64,000 nucleotides of DNA from Hyphomicrobiales bacterium (GTDB lineage: Bacteria; Pseudomonadota; Alphaproteobacteria; Rhizobiales; MH13): contig JAEPOK010000001.1 in the NCBI GenBank assembly GCA_017642935.1, positions 1,533,192 to 1,597,191 on the forward strand, given 5' to 3'. Shown piece by piece: positions 29,556 to 41,461 of this stretch. Each line of letters begins with the position of its first letter. Within the stretch, counting starts at the first letter, position 1. The notes below the pieces were generated by a model. That model saw nothing but the letters and a program-made list of their open reading frames with translations, was not told where the DNA came from and did no database searches. Both the position numbers and the translations under genes were made by a program.

Positions 29556-30986
29556 TCAGCCGCGCGGGGTCAGACCCACATCCAGCATGTTGTCAGGATG
29601 ATCCGGCGCGCGGATACGCACGGCTGGTGTACGCATGGTGACCAGTTCCTCGGCGGCCGTCGGGTGGACAGCAATCGTGTTGTCAAAATCGGCCTTGGTC
29701 GCACCCATAGTCACCGCGATGCCAATGGCCTGGATCAGTTCGCCCGACCCGTCGCCACAGATGTGCACGCCAAGCACCTTGTCGTTGTCGGCATCGACGA
29801 TAATCTTCATCAGCATACGTTCATCGCGGCCCGGAAAGGCGTGCTTCATGGCGCGAAACTCGGTCTTGTAGATGTCGATGTTGTTGCAGGCGTCCTTAGC
29901 CTGCTCTTCGGTCATGCCGATGGTGCCCAGCTCCGGTTGGGAGAAAACGGCCGTCGGGATGAGCGAATGATCGACAGTGCGTGGGTTGTTGCCAAACACG
30001 CTGTCAGCAAAAGCGTGGCCCTCGCGGATGGCCACCGGCGTTAGATTGGCCCGATTGGTCACATCGCCCACCGCATAGATGCTCGGGCACGATGTCTGAC
30101 TGTCGGCCGAAACCGGAATTGAACCGTTGCGGCGCACCTCGATGCCCGCGTTTTCCAGGCCAAGGCCCGTTGTATTGGCCGAGCGGCCAATCGCGAACAT
30201 GATCTGATCGGCAATCAGATCCTCGCCCACCGAGGTGTGACCGCAGAGTTTGCCGTCTTCGGTCTTGGTGATGCGCGTGAAGACATCATCAAAGACAAAC
30301 TTGATGCCTTTTTTCTCCATCTCATCACGCAGGTGGCAGCGCAAATCCTCATCGAACCCGCGCAGGATATTGCCGCGCCGATAGATCACGGTTGTATCGA
30401 CACCGAGCCCATTGAAAATGCCCGCGAACTCCACCGCGATGTAGCCTGCCCCCGCAATGACAATGCTCTCCGGCAGTTTTTCCAGATGGAAGGCCTCGTT
30501 GGAGGTGATCACATGTTCATGGCCGGGAAGATCGGTGTCGATGAACGGCGTCGCGCCAGTGGCGATCAATATCCTCTTAGCGGTGATCACTTTGTCATCT
30601 GGAATCAAGCGCACGGCCTGAGGCCCGTCGATGACGGCGCGTGACTTGAAGAGCGTCACGCCGGCCTTTTCCAGATTGGTCTTGTAGATGTCGTCCAGAC
30701 GATCAATCTCGGTGTCTTTGTGGGCGATCAACGCCGCCCAATCGAAGCCCGACTCGCCGACCGACCAGCCAAAACCACGGGCGTCTTCAAAGACCTCCGG
30801 GAAATGTGACGCGTAGACTAGAATTTTTTTGGGCACGCAGCCGCGAATGACACAGGTGCCGCCGTAGCGGTACTCCTCGGCCAGCGCGACGCGGGCGCCA
30901 TGCAGCGAGGCAATGCGTGCAGCGCGCACGCCGCCGGACCCCCCGCCTATCACGAAGAGGTCGTAGTCGAAGGCGGGGTCTGTCAT
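29556..30986 (-). CDS. gor: Glutathione-disulfide reductase
   Basis: The 476-residue protein has FAD-binding VIGGGSGGVRAAR, the redox pair Cys45/Cys50 in GGTCVIRGCVPKK, the NADPH domain GAGYIAVEFAGIFNGLG, and the C-terminal active-site region with HPTAAEELVTMR. It reduces glutathione disulfide with NADPH. It is the last of the leftward set rpiA, DUF2059 gene and gor, an order I recall from several Rhizobiales, and shares a terminator with the RND operon. Confidence 0.94.
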   Translation of the reverse strand: MTDPAFDYDLFVIGGGSGGVRAARIASLHGARVALAEEYRYGGTCVIRGCVPKKILVYASHFPEVFEDARGFGWSVGESGFDWAALIAHKDTEIDRLDDIYKTNLEKAGVTLFKSRAVIDGPQAVRLIPDDKVITAKRILIATGATPFIDTDLPGHEHVITSNEAFHLEKLPESIVIAGAGYIAVEFAGIFNGLGVDTTVIYRRGNILRGFDEDLRCHLRDEMEKKGIKFVFDDVFTRITKTEDGKLCGHTSVGEDLIADQIMFAIGRSANTTGLGLENAGIEVRRNGSIPVSADSQTSCPSIYAVGDVTNRANLTPVAIREGHAFADSVFGNNPRTVDHSLIPTAVFSQPELGTIGMTEEQAKDACNNIDIYKTEFRAMKHAFPGRDERMLMKIIVDADNDKVLGVHICGDGSGELIQAIGIAVTMGATKADFDNTIAVHPTAAEELVTMRTPAVRIRAPDHPDNMLDVGLTPRG

Positions 30987-37813: not shown

Positions 37814-38707
37814 ATGACCCTTACCCCCAACACGCGCGGCATCATCGCGACCTGCCTGGCAATGGTCGGGTTCATCGGCACGGACAGCTGCATCAAACTC
37901 GCCTCGCAGGACCTGCCGATCAGCCAAATGATTGCGCTACGCGGGATTGCGATCCTCGCGATCTTGGTCGCCATGGCGTTCGCGACCGGCGCCCACAAGG
38001 CCTTGCCGACGTTTAAAGACAAGGCGGTTGGCCTGCGCGCGTTCGGCGAGTGTATGGCCACCTTACTCTATTACAACGCAATCATCGCGATCCCTATCGC
38101 CAATGCCAATGCGGTGTTGCAGACGATCCCTTTGGTCATCGTCGCCGTCGCGGCGTTGTTCTTCGGTGAAAAGGTTGGTTGGCGGCGGTGGCTCATGATC
38201 CTGGTTGGCTTTTCCGGCGTGCTCTTGATCATTCAGCCGGGCGGCGATGGGTTTATGCCTGCCAGCCTCTGGGCCGTTGCGGCGGTGATCTTTTTCGTCA
38301 TCCGCGATATGGCGACGCGCTATATCGATCCACGCCTGCCGGCGGTGTCGATCAACCTTGTCACCAGCGCGTCGGTGATGGTGATGGGCTTTATTCTAGC
38401 GTTTTTCCAGGACTGGGTGATCCTGACGCCGCAAGCCCTTGCGCTCCTCGGCTTGTCGGCCTGTTTTCTCACCATGGGGTATCTCGCCGTCACTGTCGCG
38501 ATGCGCAGCGGTGACGTTTCGGTGACCTCACCGTTCCGCTATTCCATCGTGCTTTGGGCGCTTGGCATCGACGCCATCGTGTTCGGCAACAGGCCCGACC
38601 TCACGATGATTGTGGGCCTCACAATCGTGGTGGCCAGCGGCATCTACATGATCGTGCGTGAGCGGCAGATCAATCAATCCAAAGACGCCACTCACTCTTC
38701 CTCGTAA
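37814..38707 (+). CDS. DMT-superfamily (EamA) transporter
   Basis: The 297-residue protein has ten hydrophobic helices in two EamA repeats. Marks are the first helix GIIATCLAMVGFIGTDSCIK, LLYYNAIIAIPIANANAVL, and the second repeat with VTSPFRYSIVLWALG. It is an inner-membrane carrier of metabolites of unknown type; S-adenosylmethionine or amino-acid export is common in relatives. Its tail overlaps the end of the convergent LysR gene by 16 bases. Confidence 0.9.
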   Translation: MTLTPNTRGIIATCLAMVGFIGTDSCIKLASQDLPISQMIALRGIAILAILVAMAFATGAHKALPTFKDKAVGLRAFGECMATLLYYNAIIAIPIANANAVLQTIPLVIVAVAALFFGEKVGWRRWLMILVGFSGVLLIIQPGGDGFMPASLWAVAAVIFFVIRDMATRYIDPRLPAVSINLVTSASVMVMGFILAFFQDWVILTPQALALLGLSACFLTMGYLAVTVAMRSGDVSVTSPFRYSIVLWALGIDAIVFGNRPDLTMIVGLTIVVASGIYMIVRERQINQSKDATHSSS

Positions 38708-39606
38708 GGCAGATCAAGCTCGCGGTGGACCCACTGCGTAAAGGCGGCGACCTTCGGCTTCAACCGCGCTGTTGGCGGCATCACAAGGTAGAATGCCAGA
38801 GGCGTTTGCAGGCGCAGATTGGGGAACGGTTCGACAAGAAGCCCCTTATCGATATCGCTTTGCGCCAGGGAGGTTCGCGCCAAGGCAATGCCGACGCCGC
38901 GCGCTGCCGCATCGATGGCGTGATCGGCATGGTTGAAGCGCAACCCCCTCACCTCACCCTCATAGGTCACGCCAGCGTGCTTGAACCATTCAGGCCAGTT
39001 CGGCGCCTCTTTGGTGAAGGCCATCGATTCATCGATGATCAGCGGTTGGGAGGCGATGTCCTGTGGCGTCTTGAGCTGGTGGGTTTCTAAAAAGGTTGGA
39101 GAGGCGAGCACCGTCACCTCATCGCCCATCAGCAAGAACTGCTCCAAGCCGGCATAGTTTCCCGGTCCAAAACGAACACCGACATCAACGCCATCGCGGT
39201 TGAAATCGACAAGCTTCAGGCTGGCCGAAATGCGCACTTCGATCTCCGGATGCTCGTCCATGAAGCTGAACAGCCGGGGCGACAACCATTTGGCTGCGAA
39301 GGACGGACCGGTCGAGACAACGAGCACGTTTTCCGGCGTATCGGCGGACAGGCGATCCACTGCGATCCGCATGCGGGCAAACGCTTCGCGAATGTCAGGA
39401 TAAAGCAGTTCGCCGGCCTCGGTCAGCGCGATGGCGCGGTTCAAGCGCGCAAAGAGCTCCATGCCTAATCGGTCTTCCAAGGATCGCACCTGATAGGAGA
39501 CAGCCGACGGCGTCAGATTCAGCTCCTCAGCCGCCAGGGCAAAACTCATATGGCGGGCGGTGGCCTCGAAGGCTTGCAAGCCGTTGAGCGTGGGAAGACG
39601 TGACAT
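38692..39606 (-). CDS. LysR-family regulator (GcvA-like)
   Basis: The start at 39606 (MSRLPTLNGLQAFEATARHM) gives 304 residues. The winged helix is AAEELNLTPSAVSYQVRSLE, followed by a periplasmic-binding-like effector domain. Its N-terminus PTLNGLQAFEA is the GcvA-like type. A perfect ATCAAA-TTT-TTTGAT dyad with T-N11-A spacing lies 28 bases upstream, suggesting autoregulation and control of the divergent micro-ORFs. It overlaps the DMT gene at its 3' end. Confidence 0.9.
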   Translation of the reverse strand: MSRLPTLNGLQAFEATARHMSFALAAEELNLTPSAVSYQVRSLEDRLGMELFARLNRAIALTEAGELLYPDIREAFARMRIAVDRLSADTPENVLVVSTGPSFAAKWLSPRLFSFMDEHPEIEVRISASLKLVDFNRDGVDVGVRFGPGNYAGLEQFLLMGDEVTVLASPTFLETHQLKTPQDIASQPLIIDESMAFTKEAPNWPEWFKHAGVTYEGEVRGLRFNHADHAIDAAARGVGIALARTSLAQSDIDKGLLVEPFPNLRLQTPLAFYLVMPPTARLKPKVAAFTQWVHRELDLPYEEE

Positions 39607-39633
39607 GGAAGCCCTTTTCTTCGATCTATTCAG

Positions 39634-39648
39634 ATCAAATTTTTTGAT
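39634..39648. promoter_or_regulatory. LysR-type T-N11-A box
   Basis: ATCAAA and TTTGAT flank a TTT centre, a perfect inverted repeat that satisfies T-N11-A. It lies between the LysR gene (starts 39606) and the micro-ORF at 39750. Confidence 0.6.
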
Positions 39649-39749
39649 GTGATGTCGCAATCTACCCGTTTGTGATCGCTGCTGACAAGGCGCATACATC
39701 GTTCAACGCAATCGAGCACATCAAATTCTTCTCACGAAAGGATCATCCC

Positions 39750-39860
39750 ATGTTGGACATCACATCGCGCAAAACGCTCCGCTCGCACATCGACGCTGCT
39801 CACACAGCGCGTTCGCAGGCTTGGGCACACTTCTTCCACGCCCTGCTGCACCGAGATTAA
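39750..39860 (+). CDS. Micro-protein with RSQAW motif, first of a pair
   Basis: The 36-residue product starts at MLDITSRKT after an AAAGGA site. It is a basic amphipathic helix with ARSQAWAHFFHALL near the C-terminus. The next micro-ORF shares RSQAW and a following F-x-A-L. I do not know the family. It is read away from the LysR gene and the LysR box, so it is probably a target of that regulator. The repeated motif and ribosome site support real coding. Confidence 0.6.
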   Translation: MLDITSRKTLRSHIDAAHTARSQAWAHFFHALLHRD

Positions 39861-39913
39861 GCACCACGCCCTCTCGATGCAGGGCTAGACCCCTCGACCC
39901 AAAGGCGAAACCG

Positions 39914-40087
39914 ATGCTGGTCTACTCCTCCCTCCCCGACATCCAGAAAAAACTATCCGAAGGGCGCGCTCTGCGCTCGCAAGCCTGGATTGGCCTTTTC
40001 CGTGCCTTGGCCAAGACGTTCAAGCGACTTCACGCCAAGCGCCATCAACCGGCCGACAGGCCGCCGCCGAGCGCCCTTCCCGCCTAA
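39914..40087 (+). CDS. Micro-protein with RSQAW motif, second of a pair
   Basis: The 57-residue product (MLVYSSLPDIQ...) has an AAAGG stretch before the ATG. Residues 17-36 hold GRALRSQAWIGLFRALAKTF, followed by a basic and then Pro-rich tail. The shared RSQAW with the upstream micro-ORF suggests an old duplication. The helix is amphipathic and basic, so RNA or membrane binding are both possible. The function is unknown. Confidence 0.6.
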   Translation: MLVYSSLPDIQKKLSEGRALRSQAWIGLFRALAKTFKRLHAKRHQPADRPPPSALPA

Positions 40088-40252
40088 CCTCCCGAGCCAG
40101 GGCCCTCCCAGACTTAGCTCCTGTCCTATCCCCCCCTTGGCGCGACGGCTTTGTCGCTCTACAATCGAAACATCGCATGGCGTCGCAGGAGACCTCTCCC
40201 TGCGGCGCCATTTTGCTGTTTGAAAATCACACTCTGAAAGCAACATCCGGGC

Positions 40253-41461
40253 ATGGCCAACGCCACCGCCGATACTCCGTTTGCGCAACGGCCAAGCACG
40301 TTTTTGTTGGTGCTGATCGTGTCGATCAGCCCGCTGACGATGCACATCTATCTGCCGTCTCTTCCAGGCTTGGCTGCCGATCTGCAGGCGAGCGACGCGC
40401 AAGTGCAGCTTACCTTGTCGGTCTACCTTTTTGCCGTCGCGGTTATCCAACTCATCGTCGGCCCTGTCTCAGACCGTTTCGGGCGACGGCCAACGATGAT
40501 TTGGGGACTGGTGTTGTTCTTGATCGCGACCCTGTTTTGTCGCTTCGCGACCAGCATTGAAGCATTGATCATCGCACGCGGTTTCCAAGCGATCGGTGGC
40601 TGCGTTGGCATGGTTGTCGGTCGAGCGATCGTGCGCGACGTGGCGGACCGCAGCGAGGCGGCCAGCCTGCTCGGCTATGTAACGATGGGCATGGCAATCG
40701 CCCAAATGAGTGGCCCTGCGATCGGCGGACTGTTGGATGGGCTTTATGGCTGGCGCGCATCCTTTGATCTTTTGCTACTGCTCGGCGCCTGTCTGCTTGT
40801 GATCGTGTTGGTGACGTTGCGTGAAACACATCACAACCGCCAACGCTCACTATCGTTTGGCGCGTTGGCGCGCAGCCATATGACCTTGCTGAAGGAACCT
40901 GGCTTTTGGGCGTTTTCGCTTACTGGCGCTTTGGCCGCTGGCGTGTTCTTCACCTTCATCGGCGGGGGGCCGCTGATCACCCAGCGTGAGTATGGCTTAG
41001 ATCCGGTTGATTACGGGTTCTATTTCGCAATCATCGCGGCAGGTTATGCTGCTGGGAACTATCTTTCCGGACGCTATGCAGCTCAGATCGGGCCGCCGCG
41101 CATGATCGCTGTGGGCAATATTCTTGGGCTGCTTGCCATCGTGATCATGGCGGGCCTGCTTTTTATCGGCGTGATTCACCCGCTCGCCTTGTTCGGCCCC
41201 ATGTTCCTATCCTCGTTTTCCAACGGTTTCGTCATGCCAAACACCATTTCCGGCGCGCTTTCCGTCCGCCCCGAGTTGGCGGGCACGGCATCGGGCATCA
41301 ATGGGTCATTGATGGTCTTCGTTGGCGCCATGGCGACCGTCATTGTTGGCACTGTGATCCATCTGGGAGGCTGGCCGTTTGTTCTGATCATGCTCGCCTT
41401 TGCCATCGCGGCGTTGCTGGCCGGAATGTGGGCCAATGCGCTGGAGCGGCGGGCGATCTAG
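40253..41461 (+). CDS. Bcr/CflA-family MFS exporter
   Basis: The 402-residue protein has twelve hydrophobic helices. The segment MHIYLPSLPGLAADLQ in TM1 and VGPVSDRFGRRPTMIWGL after TM2 are typical of Bcr/CflA drug transporters, which export bicyclomycin, sulfonamides, Cys or other small compounds by proton antiport. The second-half helix pair (PLALFGPMFLSSFSNGFVMP) supports the family. It ends overlapping the convergent mrp gene by four bases. Confidence 0.9.
   Translation: MANATADTPFAQRPSTFLLVLIVSISPLTMHIYLPSLPGLAADLQASDAQVQLTLSVYLFAVAVIQLIVGPVSDRFGRRPTMIWGLVLFLIATLFCRFATSIEALIIARGFQAIGGCVGMVVGRAIVRDVADRSEAASLLGYVTMGMAIAQMSGPAIGGLLDGLYGWRASFDLLLLLGACLLVIVLVTLRETHHNRQRSLSFGALARSHMTLLKEPGFWAFSLTGALAAGVFFTFIGGGPLITQREYGLDPVDYGFYFAIIAAGYAAGNYLSGRYAAQIGPPRMIAVGNILGLLAIVIMAGLLFIGVIHPLALFGPMFLSSFSNGFVMPNTISGALSVRPELAGTASGINGSLMVFVGAMATVIVGTVIHLGGWPFVLIMLAFAIAALLAGMWANALERRAI

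Follow-up and report, generated by a model that had tools for sequence, protein, structure and literature searches.

The window, by which we mean the whole 64,000-nucleotide stretch of DNA analyzed here, contains two small open reading frames in tandem (ORF1, 36 codons, and ORF2, 57 codons) that lie divergent from a gene for a GcvA-like LysR-type regulator. The preliminary description had reported this arrangement, and its elements were confirmed in the sequence: the two frames share RSQAW followed by F-x-A-L (RSQAW-x3-F-x-A-L), each is preceded by a Shine-Dalgarno-like ribosome-binding site (GAAAGGA and AAAGG, read directly from the window sequence), and a perfect T-N11-A dyad, ATCAAATTTTTTGAT, lies between them and the LysR gene (Table 1). 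The regulator passes the cut-off of the GcvA subfamily (NCBIfam NF008352, 325.4 bits versus 288); its start was set by homology, and an in-frame ATG occurs further upstream, at 39699. ORF2 is probably a lineage-specific second copy.

Table 1. Features of the LysR/micro-protein locus, with coordinates in the window
Feature	Position	Strand	Basis or remark
Transporter-like gene	37814-38707		Far side of the LysR gene; NCBIfam match to YddG, below cut-off
GcvA-like LysR-type regulator gene, 304 aa	38692-39606	-	Homology; divergent from ORF1 and ORF2
Perfect T-N11-A dyad, ATCAAATTTTTTGAT	39634-39648		Predicted primary LysR site, about -65
Predicted LysR-gene promoter, TTGTCA-18-TAGATT	39659-39688	-	Sigma-70 consensus scan; overlaps the CGTTTGT box
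Conserved box, CGTTTGT	39667-39673	+	Predicted activation site over the -35 region
-10-like hexamer, CATACA	39693-39698	+	CATATT is the consensus across loci; predicted start at about 39704-39705
ORF1, 36-aa micro-protein	39750-39860	+	Shine-Dalgarno-like GAAAGGA at 39736-39742
ORF2, 57-aa micro-protein	39914-40087	+	Shine-Dalgarno-like AAAGG at 39901-39905
Second promoter-like site, TTGGCG-17-TACAAT	40137-40165	+	Between ORF2 and the efflux gene
Strong hairpin, then modest T-rich stretch	40175-40216	+	Looser hairpin script
Bcr/CflA efflux gene	40253-41461		Downstream of ORF2; TIGR00710, 246 bits, cut-off 200.9

On the far side of the LysR gene, the transporter-like gene had YddG as its sole NCBIfam match at an E value of 1e-5, and its EamA label was assigned by eye. 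The efflux gene may have a promoter of its own, because a promoter-like site separates it from ORF2. The hairpin in the same interval probably marks the end of the micro-ORF transcript. No terminator in the window passed a strict scan; with looser criteria, a hairpin trailed by some T residues was located after the micro-ORF both in the window and in 11 of 12 other loci scanned, weak in L040 and absent in L102.

Shared 5-mers and dyads of this kind are within chance, and we rejected them as stand-alone evidence. Twelve of 884 neighboring small-ORF pairs in the window have some 5-mer in common (the RSQAW pair falls outside this count: when each ORF is given its most upstream start, ORF1 and ORF2 overlap), and dyads are frequent in the window, with 33 perfect ones of the 6-3-6 type and 16 of the T-N11-A type (5-bp arms). 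It is conservation, not the 5-mer or the dyad, that raises the locus above chance. A hidden Markov model (HMM) built from 29 sequences, none of them from the window's genus, placed ORF1 first (E value, 2e-4) and ORF2 second (1.3e-3) among 1472 window frames, with a modest similarity to this other-genera profile (17.7 and 15.1 bits, respectively). An earlier and weaker HMM of 16 sequences had placed ORF2 third and ORF1 fourth; the two frames ranked above them are taken for chance matches. Three of the five RSQAW codons differ synonymously between ORF1 and ORF2. The frequency of shared 5-mers among neighboring small ORFs, and the finding reported below that same-genus genomes lack a counterpart of ORF2, would suit the view that both ORFs are chance frames with a coincidental motif repeat, but the ranking by the leave-genus-out HMM and the same-genus orthologues of ORF1 make this view very improbable.

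An orthologue of the LysR gene was found in all three same-genus genomes (76 to 83% identity), each with one divergent micro-ORF that starts with ML-[YF]-D and retains A-R-S-[QR]-A. These orthologues keep the ORF1 frame. The codon-pattern check that had been proposed for the locus was run on ORF1: third codon positions changed most in six of six pairwise comparisons among ORF1 and its same-genus orthologues. However, amino-acid-changing codons outnumbered synonymous ones in all six pairs (for example, 16 versus 11), and the protein therefore evolves fast. The next LysR relatives, at 46 to 53% identity, in five order-level genomes (G027, G032, G039, G013, and G040), each have a divergent micro-ORF as well, and in G038 a DUF1127 protein occupies the divergent slot (Pfam E value, 1.3e-10). 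The expectation that the pair itself would be conserved in related genomes was not borne out, as the relatives carry one micro-ORF. No ORF2 counterpart was found beside the orthologues L010 to L012, and a search for copies elsewhere in the same-genus genomes gave only weak matches, the best with an E value of 0.002; where their frames were inspected (5 of the 14 loci or places other than the orthologues), most fell within other genes. The tandem pair is therefore a local feature.

To place the locus in a broader setting, we compared 90 gaps beside GcvA-like LysR genes, namely, 80 loci from a scan of GTDB genomes, the best of 577 that were confirmed, plus the 10 first loci. These comprised 26 gaps with a micro-ORF, 29 with a DUF1127 gene, 1 with a gene for a joined protein, and 34 others; L010 and L011 were assigned to their class by eye, and the sequences that trained the local HMMs included 16 from these micro loci and 8 from these DUF1127 loci. 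The exact box CGTTTGT, at a distance of 40 to 180 nt, was present in 22 of 26 micro gaps, 23 of 29 DUF1127 gaps, and the single joined gap, that is, in 46 of 56 small-protein gaps versus 4 of 34 other gaps in this selection. Many of the other gaps, chiefly from Caulobacterales and Hyphomonadaceae, seemingly have a siroheme-synthase-like gene in the divergent position, a call tested for two examples and made by eye for the remainder. In those two (L070 and L103), and by eye in many other loci of these groups, a related LysR gene is divergent from the siroheme-synthase-like gene and the box is absent.

When the 50 gaps with an exact box were aligned on it, a palindromic T-N11-A region appeared, centered about 26 nt upstream; the box itself, as T-CGTTTGT-(C), was preceded by a stretch rich in A at -7 to -5, and 49 of the 50 gaps had an A at +27, inside a hexamer that resembles CATATT and lies about 18 nt downstream. 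LysR-type regulators (LTTRs) generally activate promoters that have a primary T-N11-A site near -65 and an activation site over the -35 region. The divergent promoter has this architecture, with the dyad near -65 and the second site over -35 relative to the predicted start, and at the level of sequence the aligned promoter resembles an LTTR-activated one. A sigma-70 consensus scan of positions 39500 to 40300 returned two promoter-like sites, the LysR-gene promoter and the site at 40137 to 40165, versus 0.3 expected; the predicted forward promoter of ORF1 was not among its matches. The predicted promoter of the LysR gene overlaps the box, and autorepression is possible. Within the genome, CGTTTGT-N16-20-CATA occurs once, at the ORF1 promoter, compared with two matches for the reversed control. 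We infer LysR control of ORF1 and ORF2 from this promoter architecture together with conservation.

An operator pattern derived from the 50-gap alignment, which the window itself does not match, was searched in 397 genomes of the order and gave 26 matches in 26 genomes (reversed control, 6). At 19 of the 26, a GcvA-like LysR gene lies on the divergent side (11 of these 19 are from one genus); the other 7 lie elsewhere. A DUF1127 protein is encoded at 13 of the 19 LysR-linked matches, including two joined proteins (L152 and L153), and the match with a micro-protein alone (L151) is the already known locus L016. Five LysR-linked matches (L141, L142, L143, L145, and L146) have neither DUF1127 nor a micro-protein. 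L141 (G070) and L142 (G135) have a divergent ORF of 54 to 58 aa beside the operator and GcvA-like LysR gene, and the L141 ORF had no Pfam or NCBIfam family match. A 272-aa protein is encoded at L143. The same LysR type at L145 (G114) and L146 (G039) is divergent from a gene for a different, 39-aa protein, for which no Pfam or NCBIfam family match was found at L145; both genomes also carry the ordinary micro-protein module (L174 and L015).

The layout downstream of the promoter bears on whether ORF1 could be a leader peptide whose translation governs termination upstream of ORF2 or the efflux gene at 40253. Such a role would fit the hairpin between ORF2 and the efflux gene, the MFS gene that by eye is apparently next in L011, L012, L013, L040, and L177, and the report that an upstream ORF attenuates a DUF1127 gene in Sinorhizobium meliloti (PMC12218461). 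However, in at least 8 of 29 loci (L042, L049, L051, L079, L090, L092, L095, and L102), the gene that follows has the opposite orientation and faces the micro-ORF, and therefore nothing lies downstream to attenuate; at L042, the one tested, this gene encodes an acetoacetyl-CoA reductase (343.1 bits, cut-off 302.1). Moreover, the next gene varies among lineages, whereas the micro-protein motif is constant, and a next gene of the MFS type was observed in only part of the clade (only the window's was tested by profile). We consider a leader function unlikely.

A second alternative places the conserved output in the RNA, with the micro-ORF incidental, by comparison with UdsC, a 3'UTR-derived sRNA downstream of RSP_7527 that is reported to be cut from the RSP_7527 mRNA (PMC9779115; PMC8625941). 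The predicted transcript folds better than shuffled versions (z score, -2.9), but the changes in ORF1 are concentrated at third codon positions, micro-protein homologues align as protein across families, and the gap has no notable Rfam match. The search for an sRNA in the gap, which the preliminary description had proposed, yielded no credible candidate, only a match at the level of chance (E value, 0.9). An output consisting of RNA alone seems to us quite unlikely; a double role, as RNA and as protein, is conceivable.

We favor a protein output and turn to the properties of the micro-proteins. Arginine makes up 11% of both ORF1 and ORF2, and their net charges are +2 and +8, respectively. AlphaFold modeled ORF2 as a single helix (residues 8 to 43; mean pLDDT, 80.6; pTM, 0.42). 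The full 18-residue core was not more amphipathic than shuffled sequences, and we did not use amphipathicity as evidence because only subranges chosen afterwards show it. Neither ORF matched any Pfam family up to an E value of 10, DUF1127 (PF06568) included. Against the RSP_7527 family (NF046098; cut-off, 26 bits), ORF2 scored 19 bits and ORF1 had no match, and the other micro-proteins tested also fell below the DUF1127 and RSP_7527 cut-offs.

A protein profile, A3, was searched over 249 genomes, with up to 26 candidates scored per genome, and gave 30 matches in 28 genomes. Ten of these were in genomes used for building the profile; among the remaining 20, L195 is the known L071, which leaves 19 previously unseen matches, 12 of them divergent from a LysR gene, 4 (all from one genus) not so placed, and 3 seemingly spurious. 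The four from one genus (g71; L184, L185, L190, and L192) are close micro-protein relatives of the form ALxRGHFERSKQFHxLLxxLF, encoded more than about 1.5 kb from any LysR gene, and the family therefore exists outside the module too. One 37-aa Roseobacter micro-protein, used as the query in a plasmid search, had no matches.

A few proteins join the two types of sequence. L071, which was in neither HMM training set, matches both the micro-protein HMM (1.8e-8) and the DUF1127 HMM (5.4e-9), and Pfam DUF1127 at an E value of 1e-12; AlphaFold modeled it as a long helix (residues 12 to 65) followed by short ones (mean pLDDT, 72.1; pTM, 0.36). L152 matches both HMMs and Pfam DUF1127 (1.4e-6), and in L153 the DUF1127 part was recognized by the local HMM and the N-terminal part by eye, from its likeness to L152. 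One genome, G041, has both the micro form (L187) and the joined micro-DUF1127 form (L195) of the module.

We built a tree from the 90 regulators and an outgroup. All 26 LysR genes linked to a micro-ORF fell into a single clade (support, 99/87; recovered in 98% of 200 bootstrap trees), itself nested within the DUF1127-linked LysR genes. A wider tree of 87 rows, made by a quick method after 23 near-copies and the outgroup were dropped and 20 new LysR genes added, joined L152 and L153 with the main micro group at an unresolved node (support, 84). The LysR gene of L071 grouped with DUF1127-linked genes in both trees, not beside the micro clade. A distant LysR group (L179 to L181, L183, and L186) has divergent micro-ORFs too, in gaps that lack CGTTTGT, and because of this group the "micro" label needs three changes in the wider tree. 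The root is not fixed, because the outgroup branch is very long in the first tree and the wider tree was rooted at its midpoint. The simplest reading of these relationships would be an order that runs from a DUF1127 protein through a joined protein to the helix alone.

We postulate, as the probable explanation of the locus, a dedicated LysR/small-protein module that produces a basic helical peptide of the DUF1127 type, in which the N-terminal helix was retained and DUF1127 itself was lost. The arrangement, together with its promoter, is found repeatedly among Alphaproteobacteria. We describe the module as related to DUF1127; its regulator is not VtlR, and the micro-proteins tested fail the DUF1127 and RSP_7527 cut-offs. 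The frame, the LysR partner, and the promoter box are conserved in the sequences compared, and beside them stand the LysR clade of the first tree and the joined proteins. We infer LysR activation, the direction of evolution, and the molecular action in the following form. The LysR protein would most likely bind the predicted site at the dyad and, with an effector, would also occupy CGTTTGT over the -35 region, which would switch on the divergent promoter. The main output would be a short basic helical protein, whose gene was probably duplicated here to give ORF1 and ORF2. This micro-protein would most likely derive from a long DUF1127 protein through retention of the Arg-x2-Arg-Ser-x-Ala-aromatic N-terminal helix and loss of DUF1127. 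DUF1127 proteins are reported to bind RNA (CcaF1) or sensor kinases (PhoR and SsrA) (PMC12501420; PMC11707872), and by analogy the micro-protein is probably a binding peptide for a protein partner (a sensor kinase or membrane protein) or for RNA.

A broader proposal is more tentative, and we hold it as a possibility rather than an expectation: DUF1127 proteins of this type may be two-part proteins, the domain may have been lost in a large alphaproteobacterial branch of LysR genes, and the helix alone, as the output of a dedicated regulator, may be functional by itself. If this is true, small genes of about 36 to 67 codons that pass no family cut-off would be tied to DUF1127 proteins and would gain a candidate dedicated regulator and promoter, and the three kinds of related module (domain only, domain and helix, helix only) would constitute a natural experiment on the binding partners of DUF1127.

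The preliminary description had suggested a system analogous to, but different from, that of VtlR and DUF1127, and this suggestion is now well supported. In Brucella, VtlR is reported to activate three DUF1127 genes (PMC12595884), and in Agrobacterium the gene of a small protein (PMC7486931), and the locus resembles VtlR/LsrB in that a LysR regulator has very small proteins as prominent targets. However, another LysR gene adjoins trxB in this genome, with 28% identity to the locus LysR (P0003), and the reported VtlR motif, CAATGCAGCCATGCA, has no match within three mismatches near the gap; its one match at this stringency in the whole window is at 30898, with 3.85 expected by chance. We rejected membership of VtlR/LsrB on these grounds, and consider it extremely improbable that the locus is that regulator or one of its targets. 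The locus LysR is a different gene, linked divergently to its small-protein gene, with a different promoter motif and a product that lacks DUF1127.

In the literature available to us in part on DUF1127, LysR/GcvA regulators, and RSP_7527, we found no description of a LysR/micro-protein module; the accessible text of a ribosome-profiling study of S. meliloti names a DUF1127 protein and does not mention LysR (PMC10117765). The locus regulator is like the GcvA subfamily in scoring above its curated cut-off and unlike it in being linked to a small-protein gene. With RSP_7527, whose promoter is reported to be RpoHII dependent (PMC9779115; PMC8625941), there is weak similarity in the motif region (ORF2, 19 bits; L016, 20 bits; L179, 22.1 bits), but all three are under the family cut-off. 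The link to DUF1127 has become sharper than first suggested. ORF1 and ORF2 differ from DUF1127 proteins (CcaF1, YjiS, and the Agrobacterium SDPs) in having no match to the domain, but they are likewise small and basic, DUF1127 proteins fill the same divergent slot, behind the same box, near related GcvA-like LysR genes, and a few long forms combine the micro-protein helix with DUF1127.
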